64,000 nucleotides of DNA, taken from contig NZ_CP045417.1 of NCBI RefSeq assembly GCF_009363755.1, positions 1 through 64,000 on the forward strand. Reading direction: 5' to 3'. Origin of the DNA: Halomonas sp. THAF5a (GTDB lineage Bacteria; Pseudomonadota; Gammaproteobacteria; Pseudomonadales; Halomonadaceae). Under the pieces are notes generated by a model. The model searched no databases. It was not told where the DNA came from and was given only the letters and a program-made list of their open reading frames with translations. Shown here piece by piece: positions 18,814 through 63,428 of this stretch (position 1 is the first letter of the stretch; each line of letters opens with the position of its first letter). The position numbers were made by a program, and so were the translations under genes.

Positions 18814-20233
18814 CCTGACCGCCCTGGAGCGCTCCCGCCTGCTGGTGGTAGGCGATGTGATGCTCGACCGCTACTGGCACGGCGGCACCTCGCGGATCTC
18901 CCCCGAGGCCCCGGTCCCGGTGGTCAGGGTCGACGAGGCCGAGGACCGCCCCGGCGGCGCCGCCAACGTGGCGCTCAACGTCGCCTCCCTCGGCGCCCAT
19001 GCCGCCCTGGCCGGCCTGGTGGGCGAGGACGACAACGCCGACCGGCTGGTCTCCCGCCTCGAGGACGCCGGAGTGAGCACTCGCTTCGCGCGCAGCGCCG
19101 GCATTCCGACCATCACCAAGCTGCGCGTGATGAGCCGCAACCAGCAGCTGATCCGCCTCGACTTCGAGGAGAAGCTCGGCGAGGTCGATACCTCGGGGCT
19201 CCTTTCCCAGGTCGAGGCGGCCCTGCCCGGCTGCGACCTGGTGATCCTCTCCGACTACGGCAAGGGGACCCTCAACCGCGTCGAGGAGCTGATCCGGATG
19301 ATCCGCGGCGCCGGCAAGCGGGTGCTGGTGGACCCCAAGGGTGGCGACTTCCGCAAGTATCGCGGGGCCAGCGTGATCACCCCCAACCTCGGCGAGTTCG
19401 AGGCGGTCATGGGCCCCTGCCGCGACGACGCCGAGCTCGCGGCCAAGGGCGAGACGCTGCGTGCCGAGCTCGAGCTCGAGGCGCTGCTGGTCACCCGCAG
19501 CGAGAAGGGCATGACGCTGATCCGCGAGGGGCACGAGCCGCTGCACCTGCCGACCCGCGCCCGGGAGGTCTACGACGTCACCGGCGCCGGCGACACCGTG
19601 ATCGGCGTGCTGGGCCTGGCGCTCGCCGCCGGGCACGGCTTCCCCGAGGCGATGACCCTGGCCAACCTGGCCGCCGGCCTGGTGGTGGCCAAGCCCGGCA
19701 CCGCGACGCTCTCCATCGCCGAGCTCTACACCGCCCTGCACGGCGACAAGCTGGCCGAGTTCGGCGTCATCGAGGAGGCGCCCCTGGTCGAGGCGGTGCG
19801 CGCCGCCCAGGCCCGCGGCGAGCGGGTGGTGATGACCAACGGCTGCTTCGACATCCTCCACGCCGGCCACGTCGCCTACCTGGAGCAGGCGCGCCGCCTC
19901 GGCGACCGGCTGGTGGTGGCGGTCAACGACGATGCCTCCATCGGCCGCCTCAAGGGGCCCAAGCGACCCATCAACCCCCTGGCCCGGCGCGTGCAGGTGC
20001 TGGCCGGCCTCGGCGCCGTGGACTGGGTGGTGCCCTTCGGCGAGAACACCCCCCAGCGGCTGATCGAGACGGTGCTGCCGGACGTGCTGGTCAAGGGCGG
20101 CGACTACCGCCCCGAGGAGATCGCCGGCGGCGCCGCCGTGCGCGAGGCCGGCGGCGAGGTGCGGGTGCTGGGCTTCGAGGACGGCGTCTCCACCACCGCG
20201 ATGATCTCCACCATCCTCGATCGCGAGACCTGA
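18803..20233 (+). CDS. hldE: Bifunctional heptose-7-phosphate kinase / heptose-1-phosphate adenylyltransferase
   Basis: HldE carries out both nucleotide-dependent steps of ADP-heptose synthesis. The N-terminal ribokinase-like domain (about 1-320) has [31 protein letters not shown] and the anion-hole/catalytic [10 protein letters not shown]. The C-terminal cytidylyltransferase-like domain (from about 335) has [16 protein letters not shown] and the KGPKRPINP loop. Length is 476 aa versus 477 in E. coli. Its TGA overlaps the waaA ATG (TGATG). Works with GmhB and HldD encoded elsewhere in this window. Confidence 0.97.
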
Positions 20234-21534
20234 TGGGCCTCTCGCCGGCCTGGGCCCGCCGCGCCTACTCGGCGGCCCTCTACCTGCTCGCGCCGCTGGT
20301 CTGGAAGCGGGTGTGGCGCGAGCAACTGCCCGGTCGCCCGCGGTGCGAGCGGCTGGGGCTCGTTCCCCCCGCCGGCGAGCGCGAGCGGGTCCTCTGGCTG
20401 CACTGCGCCTCGGTGGGCGAGGTGCAGGCCGCCCGCCCGCTGATCGCGGCGCTGGCCGAGCGCTGGCCCGGGTATCGCCTGGTGATCACCACCATGACTG
20501 CCACCGGCGCCGAACGGGTGCTGGCGCTCTCGGAGGCGTCCGGTCAGGAGGGGGCGTCCGGCGAAGTGAGCCATCACTTCGTGCCGCTGGACTTCCCCGG
20601 CGCCGCGCGGCGCTTCGTCACCCGGCTGCGCCCGGCGCTCGCCCTCTTCTTCGAGACCGAGCTGTGGCCCAACCTGCTGGCGGCCTGCGATCGCGCGGGC
20701 GTGCCGGTGGCGGTGGTCAACGGCCGGCTCTCGCCCCGCGCCTTCCGCGGCTATCGCCGTCTGAGGCCGCTGATGCGCGACGTCCTGGGCCGGGTGCGCT
20801 GGCTGGCGGCCAAGTCCGGCGAGGATGCCGCCCGCTTCCAGGCCCTCGGCATGCCGGCCGAGCGCAGCGACGTGGTGGGCAGCCTGAAGTTCGACCTCGC
20901 CATCGACGACGCGACCCACGAGGTGAGCGAGCGCTTGCACACCCGGCTGGGCGACCGGCCCGTCTGGGTGGCCGGGTCCACTCACCCCGGGGAGGACGAG
21001 GCACTGCTGGCGGCCCATGCCCGGCTGCGAGCGCAGCGGCCCGAGGCGCTGCTGGTGCTGGTGCCGCGCCACCCCCGGCGCTTCGAGGAAGTGGCCGCCC
21101 TCTGTGCCCGGGCGGGCCTCGCGGTGGCGCGCCGCTCCCGGGGCGAATGGCCCGGCGCCGACACGGCCGTCTACCTCGGCGACACCATGGGCGAGCTGCT
21201 GGCGCTCTACGGCGCGGCGGACCTGGCCTTCGTGGGGGGCAGCCTGGTGCCCATCGGCGGGCATAACCTGCTGGAGCCGGCGGCGCTGGGCGTGCCGGTG
21301 CTCACCGGCCCCGAGCTTGCCAACTTCCTCGACGTGGCCGAGGCGCTGCGCGAGGCCGAGGCGCTGGTCGAGGTGGCCGACGCCGATGCGCTGGGCGACG
21401 CCCTGGGGCGGCTCTTCGACGACGCCGCCGAGCGCCGGCGGCTCGCCGAGGCCGGCCGCGGCGTGGTGGCGGCCAACCGCGGCGCCCTCGCGCGGACCCT
21501 GGCGGGCCTGGAGGCGCTGCTGCCGGCGAAGTAA
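20233..21534 (+). CDS. waaA: Kdo transferase WaaA (KdtA)
   Basis: WaaA attaches Kdo to lipid IV-A at the inner membrane. The 433-aa product has an N-terminal hydrophobic anchor (AYSALLYLLAPLVW-like, about residues 10-24), LWLHCASVGEVQAARPLI, FFETELWPNLLAACDRAGVP and the C-terminal VGGSLVPIGGHNLLEPAALG, all WaaA hallmarks. The presence of KdkA suggests a monofunctional enzyme adding one Kdo. The stop codon TAA is part of the 8-bp target duplication created by the adjacent MITE-like element. Confidence 0.96.
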   Translation: MGLSPAWARRAYSAALYLLAPLVWKRVWREQLPGRPRCERLGLVPPAGERERVLWLHCASVGEVQAARPLIAALAERWPGYRLVITTMTATGAERVLALSEASGQEGASGEVSHHFVPLDFPGAARRFVTRLRPALALFFETELWPNLLAACDRAGVPVAVVNGRLSPRAFRGYRRLRPLMRDVLGRVRWLAAKSGEDAARFQALGMPAERSDVVGSLKFDLAIDDATHEVSERLHTRLGDRPVWVAGSTHPGEDEALLAAHARLRAQRPEALLVLVPRHPRRFEEVAALCARAGLAVARRSRGEWPGADTAVYLGDTMGELLALYGAADLAFVGGSLVPIGGHNLLEPAALGVPVLTGPELANFLDVAEALREAEALVEVADADALGDALGRLFDDAAERRRLAEAGRGVVAANRGALARTLAGLEALLPAK

Positions 21535-21755
21535 GGTCCATCGCATTTTGGCGTGAAGCCGTTTGGCAAGAAATGAGGTAGGCAGCTTTCCTGTGGGAGC
21601 GATGCTTGCATCGCGAAAGAAGGCCGAAGGCCTTCTCGGCTTTAAGCACAAACTCCGAGGCGCCTGTCGGCGCCAATCGCGGTGCAAGTCGAGGCGTCGA
21701 ACCGACCACTCCCACAAGGGTTTCTCGCCCCGTTCACGCTAATCTGCGAAGATCC
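21535..21755. mobile_element. 221-bp MITE-like element with ISL3-type ends
   Basis: The left end begins GGTCCATCGCATTTTGGCGT; the right end, read inward on the other strand, begins GGATCTTCGCAGATTAGCGT. Perfect 8-bp direct repeats CGAAGTAA flank it (21527-21534 and 21756-21763). The right end matches the left inverted repeat of the ISL3-family element at 62093 in 21 of 23 bases; the left end matches that element's right repeat in 19 of 23. The interior has no credible gene but holds perfect hairpins at 21599-21614, 21618-21636 and 21659-21674, enclosed by TGTGGGAG (21592) and CTCCCACA (21709). It is best read as a non-autonomous derivative mobilised by an ISL3 transposase. Confidence 0.85.
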
Positions 21756-21800
21756 CGAAGTAAGCGTTCACGCTACCCTTTCTTCAAGCTCGTTCGAGCG

Positions 21801-22475
21801 TCAGGCGGGCGTCAACCGCTCCACGCCCTGCTCGCCGCCGAGCAGCAGTAGGTCCGCGCCCCGGGCGGCGAAGAGCCCGTTGGTGACCACCCCCACGATA
21901 GCGTTGATCCGCGCCTCCATGGCGACCGGGTCCTCGATCATGAACTCGAAGCAGTCGAGGATCTGGTTGCCGTTGTCGGTGACCACGCCCTGGCGGTAGA
22001 CCGGGTCGGCGCCCAGCTTGACCAGCTCGCGGGCCACGTAGGAGCGCGCCATGGGGATCACCTCGACCGGCAGCGGGAAGTCGCCCAGGGTCGCGACCTT
22101 CTTCGAGGCGTCGGCGATGCAGACGAAGCGCTCGGCGCAGGCGGCGACGATCTTCTCGCGGGTCAGGGCCGCGCCGCCGCCCTTGATCATGTGGAGGTGA
22201 GCGTTCACTTCGTCGGCGCCGTCGACATAGACCGGCACGGTGCCCACCTCGTTGAGCTCGAAGCACTCGATGCCGTGGCCGCGCAGACGCTCGGCGCTGG
22301 CCTCGGAGCTCGCCACGGCGCCGCGGAAGTCGCCGCGCAGGCCGGCCAGCCGGTCGATGAAGCGGTTCGCGGTGGAGCCGGTACCGACGCCGATCACGCT
22401 GTCACGGCCGAGGTGCGGGCGGATCTCGTCGATGGCGGCGGCGGCCACCGCGTCCTTGAGTTCGTCCTGGGTCAT
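21801..22475 (-). CDS. rpiA: Ribose-5-phosphate isomerase A
   Basis: RpiA interconverts ribose-5-phosphate and ribulose-5-phosphate in the pentose phosphate pathway. The 224-aa product starts [10 protein letters not shown], as in E. coli, and shows [15 protein letters not shown] (phosphate loop), [25 protein letters not shown] and [12 protein letters not shown]. An upstream in-frame ATG at 22502 is less likely. The gene is divergent from ilvA, a common gammaproteobacterial pairing, and its 3' end faces the MITE-like element and waaA. Confidence 0.97.
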
Positions 22476-25216: not shown

Positions 25217-25402
25217 CGGAGTTCCCCAGAGTGCCGCTGTCGTTCTGGCCCTTGAACCCATTGGTTCAAGGTGGGTGGCCGCAGCCGAACCGTCAGGCTT
25301 TCCGACGCACGGACGTGCACACGGGTTCGGCTAGCTTTGGCCCCCTGGGTACTGCGCATAGGCTCGAGGGACTATAACGACTGGCCAACACCCCAGGGAA
25401 CC
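25217..25402 (-). ncRNA. ssrS: 6S RNA
   Basis: 6S RNA binds the sigma-70 holoenzyme and down-regulates transcription in stationary phase. The minus strand between zapA and the 5-FCL gene is the canonical ssrS position. The ends pair (GTTCCCTGGGGTG near 25401-25389 with CACTCTGGGGAAC near 25233-25221, 13 consecutive pairs counting G-U). The conserved 3' block CACCTTGAACCAATGGGTTC, close to the E. coli sequence, is present near 25275-25256. About 186 nt; ends are approximate. Confidence 0.92.
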
Positions 25403-62084: not shown

Positions 62085-62092
62085 AAAAATAA
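62085..62092. repeat. Left 8-bp target duplication of the ISL3 element
   Basis: AAAAATAA directly abuts the left inverted repeat and is repeated exactly at 63421-63428, immediately after the right end. Confidence 0.93.
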
Positions 62093-63420
62093 GGTTCTTC
62101 GCAGATCAGCGTGAAACAGGCAGGGCTTGAGGCGAGGGCTGGATAGAGAAACGGCGGTGAATCCGAGTAAGCTGATATTCGCCAAAACGTCAGCCTACGG
62201 ACACCGCCGTTGCCATGGATGCTACCCCGCTCAGCCTGTTCTGGAAAGGGTTCACTGTCGCCCACCACGAGTTCCTGGATCCTCAGACGCTACGGCTCCA
62301 GTTGGAGCCCGATGACCTGACCCCGCCTGTCTGCAGCGGCTGTGACCACGCCTGTTGCCTGGTCCATGACGTGCATCGCCGGCGCGTCCGCGAGGCGCCG
62401 CTGCTGATCTACCGAGTGGAGCTGGATGTCCCGGTGCGGCGCCTGCGCTGCCCGACCTGTGGTCCGACACGAGAGCGCATCGACTGGCTACCCGGGCGCT
62501 CGCCGGTCACCACCACACTGCGCCAGTGGGTGGAGCGCCTGGTCACGTTGCTGCCGATCCGGCATGTCGCGGATCTGGTCGGCTTGCACTGGCATACCGT
62601 CAAGACCATCGACAAGCAGCGCCTGCAACGCGACCTGCCGGCACCGGATCCGACACGCTTGCGGCGGCTGATGATGGACGAGTTTGCCCTGCACAAGGGA
62701 CACCGCTACGCCACCGTGGTCGCCTGCGCCGACACTCAGCAGGTGGTATGGATCGGCGAAGGCCGCTCCCGCGAGTCGATCCGCCCCTTCTTCGCGTGGC
62801 TGGGCGAGGCACGAGAGCTGATCGAGGCCGTGGCCATGGACATGAACTCGGCCTTCGATTGTGAGGTGAAGGACCAGTGCCCCAACGCCGAGGTGGTCTA
62901 CGACCGCTTCCACGTGGTGGCCAAGTACGGGCGCGAAGTGATGGATCGGGTACGCGTCGATCAGGCTAACCAGCTGCGCGACGACAAGGCGGCCCGCAAG
63001 GTGATCAAGGGCAGTCGTTGGCTGCTGCTGCGCAACGCCGACAATCTCAAGCCCGAGCAGGCGGTGAAGCTGGAGGAGCTGCTGGCGGCCAATGCGTCAC
63101 TGACCACGGCGTACCTGCTCAAGGATCAGCTCAAGACCCTGTGGTTTGCCGACGACGAAGCCACCGCCCGAAACGCCTGGCAGGAGTGGCATGCCATGGC
63201 GACCAGCAGTGGCATCGAGGCCTTGGAACGTTTCGCCAAGCGGTTGGTCCCGTACCTCGAAGGGATCCTGTCCAGCGCCCGGCACCGGCTGAACACCAGC
63301 GTGCTGGAGGGCATGAACAACCGGATCAAGGTCATCAAGCGGATGGCCTACGGGTATCGCGACACGGCGTACTTCTTCCTGAAGATCCGTGCCGCATTTC
63401 CCGGCAAAGTGCGATGAACC
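62093..63420 (+). mobile_element. Complete ISL3-family insertion sequence (1,328 bp)
   Basis: The ends are imperfect inverted repeats: left GGTTCTTCGCAGATCAGC..., right (complement) GGTTCATCGCACTTTGCC.... Eight-bp direct repeats AAAAATAA flank it, the duplication length known for ISL3. A single transposase gene fills most of the length, its stop codon only 3 bp from the right end. The 5' leader carries an AACGGCGGTG/CACCGCCGTT inverted repeat (62150-62159 and 62202-62211). Intact repeats and frame suggest a recent, potentially active insertion. Confidence 0.93.
62215..63417 (+). CDS. ISL3 family transposase
   Basis: The 400-aa product begins MDATPLSLFWKGFTVAHHEF. Two zinc-ribbon-like Cys clusters (CSGCDHAC and RCPTCGPTRERI, residues about 38-86) and an HTH (LVGLHWHTVKTIDKQRLQRD) precede a DDE-type catalytic core with LMMDEFALHKGHRYATVVAC, AVAMDMNSAFDCEVKDQCPNAEVVYDRFHV and the C-terminal RHRLNTSVLEGMNNRIKVIK holding the conserved Glu. 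This is the ISL3 (IS204/IS1001/IS1096/IS1165) type. No frameshift or stop interrupts it. Confidence 0.95.
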   Translation: MDATPLSLFWKGFTVAHHEFLDPQTLRLQLEPDDLTPPVCSGCDHACCLVHDVHRRRVREAPLLIYRVELDVPVRRLRCPTCGPTRERIDWLPGRSPVTTTLRQWVERLVTLLPIRHVADLVGLHWHTVKTIDKQRLQRDLPAPDPTRLRRLMMDEFALHKGHRYATVVACADTQQVVWIGEGRSRESIRPFFAWLGEARELIEAVAMDMNSAFDCEVKDQCPNAEVVYDRFHVVAKYGREVMDRVRVDQANQLRDDKAARKVIKGSRWLLLRNADNLKPEQAVKLEELLAANASLTTAYLLKDQLKTLWFADDEATARNAWQEWHAMATSSGIEALERFAKRLVPYLEGILSSARHRLNTSVLEGMNNRIKVIKRMAYGYRDTAYFFLKIRAAFPGKVR

Positions 63421-63428
63421 AAAAATAA
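63421..63428. repeat. Right 8-bp target duplication of the ISL3 element
   Basis: AAAAATAA, identical to 62085-62092. The next gene starts 35 bp further on. Confidence 0.93.

Follow-up and report, generated by a model that had tools for sequence, protein, structure and literature searches.

What kind of DNA lies between the convergent genes waaA (Kdo transferase, NF004388) and rpiA (NF001924), and how did it come to be there? The sequence analyzed, referred to here as the window, comprises the opening 64 kb of a 3.81-Mb genome represented by a single contig. The initial annotation of this DNA described a 221-bp element with a perfect 8-bp target duplication at the waaA stop codon; its coordinates and numbers were found to be correct. 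From comparisons of sequence, we consider the element to be very probably a non-autonomous miniature element (MITE) of the ISL3 family that is moved in trans and carries a captured REPIN.

Structure of the element

The features of the waaA-rpiA junction are as follows.

20233–21534: waaA open reading frame, ending with TAA inside the left CGAAGTAA
21527–21534, plus strand: left 8-bp target duplication CGAAGTAA, which holds the waaA stop codon TAA and is present in one copy at the junction in L087, L093, and L097
21535–21755, plus strand: ISL3-type miniature element (MITE), 221 bp, with full-length copies in its own genome and in relatives
21535–21557, plus strand: left terminal repeat, matching the IRR of the ISL3 insertion sequence (IS) at 19/23 positions
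21593–21616, plus strand: REP GTGGGAGCGATGCTTGCATCGCGA, with GGAG head and stem-loop; identical from GGAG onward to REPs next to the RAYT of G071, with free REPs of the same type in its own genome
21618–21636, plus strand: hairpin AGAAGGCC/GGCCTTCT, between the REPs
21659–21674, plus strand: hairpin GGCGCC-TGTC-GGCGCC, between the REPs, found in most alignment rows of element copies
21677–21715, minus strand: second REP, inverted, with the plus-strand end CTCCCAC, broken by a micro-insert at 21688–21704
21733–21755, minus strand: right terminal repeat, matching the IRL of the ISL3 IS at 21/23 positions
21756–21763, plus strand: right 8-bp target duplication CGAAGTAA

The 8-bp direct repeats CGAAGTAA are identical on both sides of the element. 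They can also be read as 9 bp (CGAAGTAAG), the first base of the element being G; the 8-bp reading is preferred because the ends of the IS (GG...) and the duplications of other copies agree with 8. As had been proposed, the waaA stop was preserved on insertion: waaA terminates with the left CGAAGTAA, TAA included. The element folds strongly, with RNA folding energies 5.3 and 5.7 s.d. below those of shuffled sequences for the two strands. At 221 bp, below a limit of about 300 bp, and lacking a transposase gene, it has the size and gene content of a MITE.

A search of the window with Rfam at gathering scores gave a single match, 6S RNA (RF00013, 103.9 bits) at 25219–25402 on the minus strand, and assignment of the element to a known RNA family was rejected. 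Plasmid and phage vehicles for the element were also sought; a search of 72,556 plasmid records and 50,697 phage records gave no match at E 1e-3, and none of the viral contigs contained one exact end pattern.

Ends shared with a resident ISL3 insertion sequence

The window contains an ISL3-family IS, with the following features.

62085–62092 and 63421–63428: 8-bp duplication AAAAATAA of the IS
62093–63420, plus strand: ISL3-family IS, 1328 bp, flanked by AAAAATAA; likely autonomous partner of the element
62215–63417, plus strand: ISL3 transposase gene, 400 aa (PF01610, E 2.3e-70; NF033550, E 3e-98)

The likeness between the ends of the element and those of the IS at 62093 was reproduced. Over 23 bp, the right end matched the IRL at 21 positions and the left end matched the IRR at 19, as the initial annotation had stated; the swapped comparisons scored 16 and 17. 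The inner motif GCGTGAA is present in both ends of the element and is lacking from the resident IRR. When a weight matrix for the ends was run over both strands of the window, four sites exceeded 14 bits, the element's two ends and the two ends of the IS; this result serves as a consistency check, the matrix having been trained on 13 hand-picked copies that include the window copy. The element thus has the ISL3-like terminal repeats and the 8-bp duplication that are found in the IS. Between the ends, similarity to the IS extended no further than words of 8–9 bp (best E 0.66).

The genome contains five full copies of the transposase gene, of which four are protein-identical and one is 99% identical, together with a fragment and a 28% paralogue. 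Five near-identical full copies indicate that the resident ISL3 IS was probably active recently.

Copies of the element and empty sites

Three copies of the element were found in its own genome: the window copy, another of full length (88%), and a diverged third copy. The 88% copy lies within the T-tract of an intrinsic terminator, and its duplication, as drawn, matches at 7/8 positions; that of the third matches at 2/8. The two full-length copies, 88% alike, probably predate the burst of the IS, which left four identical transposases. A search of the whole genome with the end pattern, allowing up to two mismatches, gave 44 matches vs. 11 for the reversed control. Ten matches were free of mismatches; four of them belonged to ends of the three elements, and the other six were ISL3 left ends of the IS type.

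For the survey of the junction, 140 genomes (own included) were searched for rpiA, and the 30 best-scoring loci of the 134 genomes with a match were used; waaA was also present in 28 of them. Within this sample from the best 30 of 134, the element was present at one of 28 junctions, that of its own genome, and absent from all 27 relatives, whose junctions measured 11 to 226 nt. Three of these empty junctions (L087, L093, and L097) contained a single CGAAGTAA; the one in L093 reads GGCGAAGTAAGCGCTTACTG, with one CGAAGTAA. The element is dispersed and multi-copy, as a MITE should be, and empty sites exist at the waaA locus, three of them with one CGAAGTAA; the insertion proposed in the initial annotation withstood the comparisons by which it could have been refuted. 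Two other junctions, L079 and L086 (178 and 226 nt), contain a longer, different, repeat-like insert in which no ISL3 end scores above 8 bits.

Identity of the core as an inverted REP pair

REPs are normally moved by RAYT, a tyrosine transposase. The interior of the element had been described as nested hairpins rather than a remnant of the transposase gene. No remnant was found, and that part of the description held; what had been missed is that the hairpins constitute an inverted pair of REPs, each with a GGAG head and a stem-loop, and two small hairpins between them, as in a REPIN. The REP of the element was the only strict match of its kind within the window, and free REPs of the same kind were present in eight of the nine other loci of the genome that were checked (L004–L012).

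In three relatives (G071, G047, and G013) a small RAYT gene (NF047646, E about 1e-38) has REPs of the window class on both sides, and the neighboring reading frames suggest that these three loci are one chromosomal place. Two of the REPs flanking RAYT in G071 are identical to the window REP from GGAG onward. In the element's own genome, no Y1_Tnp match was obtained at E 1e-3 (5 of 14 control genomes were positive), and a relative's RAYT used as the query, in a search run without a positive control, gave no match. A Y1 transposase of some kind was found in 42 of 90 genomes of the genus. The element therefore has two of the attributes of a REPIN, the two inverted GGAG/GTAG-headed REPs and the presence of the same REP class beside RAYT in relatives; the third, a RAYT in the same genome, was not detected.

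A micro-insert of 15–17 bp (GTCGAGGCGTCGAACCG and forms resembling its reverse complement) breaks REP arms in L003, L004, and L005. It occupies the right REP of the window copy (21688–21704) and the left REP in L003, is also found in REPs outside the elements, and is not present in the sister copy L002.

Distribution in related genomes

DNA of the element was matched at E 1e-3 in 37 of 145 genomes (own included), with most of the rows listed covering the interior only. The interior is alike across species; in G015 the likeness is about 70% over the full length. A pattern consisting of an end, a REP head, and an inverted REP head was found in 20 of the 90 genus genomes (reversed control pattern, 1). 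The 11 named stretches with the element pattern were from ten Halomonas and one Pseudomonas akapageensis. Patterns specifying the ends only, and requiring nothing of the interior, detected 16 distinct elements in 11 of the 90 genomes, with 0 control matches; because these patterns demanded exact agreement at the specified end bases and limited the spacing, diverged elements are missed by this count.

A broader census was made by applying the weight matrix to a collection of loci, most of which were chosen for matching the core or the ends, and some of the 13 copies used to train the matrix were among them. Ends were paired if each exceeded 9 bits, both together reached 22 bits, and they lay 100–420 bp apart; the duplication played no part in selection. 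Six alternative pairings at L048 were merged into one, reducing 35 pairs to 30, and every site was counted, whether or not it might be orthologous to another. The census comprised 30 end-paired elements of 168–281 bp in up to 17 genomes, a number in which SSL-5 and H. icarae may duplicate genomes behind other rows. The flanking duplications were perfect over 8 bp in 11 of the 30 and matched at 7/8 or better in 20, vs. 0.06% and 1.3% of mismatched pairings; none was perfect over 9 bp. Seven elements, including the third copy from its own genome, had no more than five matching bases.

An inverted pair of REP heads was present in all 16 elements identified by their ends only and in all 30 overall, vs. 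26% of shuffled interiors. A stricter test, demanding a head plus an uninterrupted stem of at least 6 bp on both strands, was passed by 14 of the 30 (6 of the 16), vs. 1.4%; the window copy fails the stem test, its right REP being broken by the micro-insert. The distance from the end of the element to the REP head, located with a loose head motif, ranged from 27 to 75 nt.

The interiors fell into two groups with no BLAST similarity to each other at E 1e-4 over 45 bases: 27 of the GGAG type and three of the GTAGGCCGGATAAGC type (G002, G011, and G027). The second REP class, GTAGGCCGGATAAGC...GCATCCGGC, is carried by ISL3-ended elements at about 1494–1676 in L193, L194, and L195, of whose duplications two are perfect and one matches at 7/8. 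We take the GTAGGCCGGATAAGC-type REP to resemble the REP of E. coli. Because the two groups of interiors lack mutual similarity, REP pairs would have entered ISL3 ends at least twice, or would have been swapped inside them.

A close ISL3 transposase (E 1e-60) was found in 15 of the 90 genus genomes, own included. It was present in four of the 11 genomes with ends-only elements, and so the partner appears to have been lost, or to be more distant, in most of these hosts.

Two loci showed unusual arrangements of ends. L048 (1236–1626, from G004) has a cluster of ISL3-like ends, two left and three right, which suggests repeated end sequences. In L153 (453–627, from Pseudomonas akapageensis), a single ISL3-like end (26.4 bits) lies beside a REP pair, and may represent half an element or a chance match; no second ISL3 end was found within the 1,200 bases scanned, and the locus was not counted in the census.

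Target sites

Thirty IS loci were examined for comparison with the sites of the elements. No end pair was found in four of them (L240, L242, L244, and L253), and four others (L235, L246, L247, and L251) were left out because of contig ends or wrong pairing, leaving 22. Perfect 8-bp duplications flanked 18 of these 22 IS copies, and were A/T-rich like those of the MITEs. The mean A/T content of the targets was 6.4 of 8 positions for the elements and 7.1 of 8 for the IS, where at least six A/T was found in about 2% of control 8-mers.

Many of the sites were T-tracts of intrinsic terminators: 11 of 30 for the elements and 6 of 22 for the IS, vs. 0.7 and 0.6 expected from A/T-matched positions. 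When only sites with a run of at least four Ts were considered, a hairpin was present at 11 of 19 element sites (P 4e-6) and 6 of 17 IS sites (P 0.01), compared with 27 of 251 control runs. No recognizable terminator was found at the remaining 19 of 30 element sites, including that at waaA. By these counts the element and the IS both favor the T-tracts of intrinsic terminators; the preference may reflect choice by the transposase or the survival of harmless insertions, and could be survivorship. A T-tract that is hit is present in both copies of the duplication, and the terminator upstream is therefore expected to remain intact; at waaA the sequence copied includes the stop codon.

Proposed mechanism and alternatives

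In the mechanism that we propose, ISL3 transposase from copies such as that at 62093 would act in trans on the two terminal repeats of the element, inserting it into short A/T-rich targets of which 8 bp are duplicated. The cargo would be a REPIN, its two inverted REPs enclosing two small hairpins and no transposase remnant. Since RAYT was not detected in this genome, the ISL3 pathway would be the likely remaining route by which the REP pair could move there. Insertion would be quiet, as the targets are often at the ends of genes, in terminator T-tracts or, at waaA, at a stop codon, and are regenerated by the duplication, so that a T-tract would remain behind its hairpin or the stop codon would remain in waaA. 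Some observations weigh against this reading: the scarcity of close ISL3 transposases in the genus and among the hosts of ends-only elements, the agreement of the left end with the resident IRR at just 19/23 positions and the lack of the inner GCGTGAA from that IRR, the poorly matching duplications of seven of the 30 elements, the 19 of 30 element sites away from recognizable terminators, and the probably greater age of the two 88% copies relative to the IS burst.

In one alternative, RAYT would have placed the REPIN in a pre-existing empty ISL3 MITE, or in the space separating two ISL3 ends that lay close together, with the composite remaining passive since then. REPs of the element's class are linked to RAYT in relatives, the distance between end and REP head is variable (27 to 75 nt), and other bacteria have REP dimers enclosed by larger palindromes, according to the part of the account cited (PMC3733652). 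We nevertheless regard such an origin as unlikely. The duplications of 7/8 or 8/8 in 20 of the 30 elements flank complete composites, beyond their ISL3 ends, which argues that the composite itself moved, and there was no ISL3-ended element without REP heads among the 16 ends-only elements. Still less credible is derivation of the element from an ISL3 IS by internal deletion, with decay of the interior past recognition; we give this almost no weight. It would explain why the terminal repeats match the ends of the IS, but no similarity links the interior to the resident IS, in keeping with the initial annotation, which had rejected simple deletion as the element's origin. Moreover, the interiors are alike between species (the 70% of G015) and have matching REP structures, and no intermediate combining an ISL3 transposase remnant with the element's interior was seen in this analysis.

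A different proposal is that the element has been domesticated as a bidirectional terminator, or as a stabilizer of mRNA 3' ends, for the convergent waaA and rpiA genes and is kept by selection. Its strong folding on both strands and its position between convergent genes are in accord with such a role; its insertion also divided a palindrome that in some relatives overlaps the waaA stop. A scan of 21300–22000 yielded one terminator-like match, which falls inside the element (minus strand, 21640–21623), vs. 0.8 expected in these 700 bp. That number is no greater than chance would give, there is no T-tract after the element at waaA, and the combination of a GC-rich hairpin followed by a T-tract that defines an intrinsic terminator is lacking there; the suggestion in the initial annotation of a terminator between waaA and rpiA was not upheld. 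The element was also absent from all 27 relatives read among the best 30 of 134, and domestication appears improbable. We return to the reading of the element as an ISL3 MITE with a REPIN cargo in what follows.

Relation to known systems

IS derivatives without genes are familiar, as are REPINs; their combination as an ISL3 MITE with a REP core appears to be new, and it recurs in related bacteria. Our searches of the open-licence literature revealed neither a description of ISL3 MITEs that have REP cores nor one of Halomonas REPs as mobile elements. Insertion sequences inserted into REPs were reportedly described by Tobes and Pareja in 2006. In the cases of this kind covered by the relevant part of PMC8450116, as in ours, an IS and a REP are associated; here the nesting is reversed, with the REP pair within the mobile element.

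The nearest counterparts of the ends are the IS-derived MITEs, as presented in the cited portions of work on P. syringae MITEs (PMC3189936) and TIMEs (PMC4133298), which are likewise short and gene-less, with IS-like terminal repeats and a target duplication, and are likely moved in trans. The present element differs from these in its ISL3 ends and in having a REP pair in place of an IS remnant. The core has its counterparts in the REPINs and BIMEs associated with RAYT, according to the sections cited (PMC3116915; PMC2817692): the inverted pair of GGAG/GTAG-headed palindromes, the free genomic copies, and the RAYT between such REPs in relatives are all alike. Here, in contrast, the pair lies inside ISL3 ends and an 8-bp duplication, and RAYT was not detected in the same genome. 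Similar in overall arrangement are REP dimers of A. variabilis and H. neapolitanus, which are regularly found inside a longer palindrome that was not found without a REP (PMC3733652, in part). Section 7 of that paper assigns no transposase to the outer palindrome and gives no target duplication, whereas ISL3 ends, 8-bp duplications, and empty sites are present here.

The element joins, with an explicit anatomy, two systems of mobile DNA that are usually kept apart, the DDE-type IS and MITEs and the RAYT/REPIN system, and it offers a testable route for the spread of REPs without RAYT. It also suggests that an element that duplicates 8 bp can exploit terminators and stop codons as sites of low cost, because the duplication restores what the insertion hits. 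More speculatively, the ISL3 MITEs of the genus might be dedicated carriers of REPINs, with two REP classes captured independently and REP pairs spread by this carriage without RAYT. Retention of the REP hairpins would then follow from the insertion of these elements at terminators by the ISL3 machinery, since a folding cargo that restores mRNA 3' ends costs the host least at such places. We hold this extension to be possible and rather doubtful.

The native flank at waaA

Just outside the element, a recurrence of the motif TAGCGTGAACG had been taken as a hint of a second, decayed end. This did not hold up; scored as an ISL3 end on the minus strand of 21756–21800, the motif reached no more than −0.9 bits. 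A second end was also rejected by comparison with L083, which lacks the element and carries GAGTGAGCGTTCACTTCGG at that place, with the core GCGTTCAC, identifying the sequence as native flank. The TAGCGTGAACG motif is part of a native palindrome over the waaA stop, for which a perfect stem of at least 6 bp was found in 8 of 27 relatives vs. 2.8% of shuffled sequences. In some relatives among the junctions L079–L106, the waaA stop codon is overlapped by a palindrome like AGTRAGYGCTYACT.
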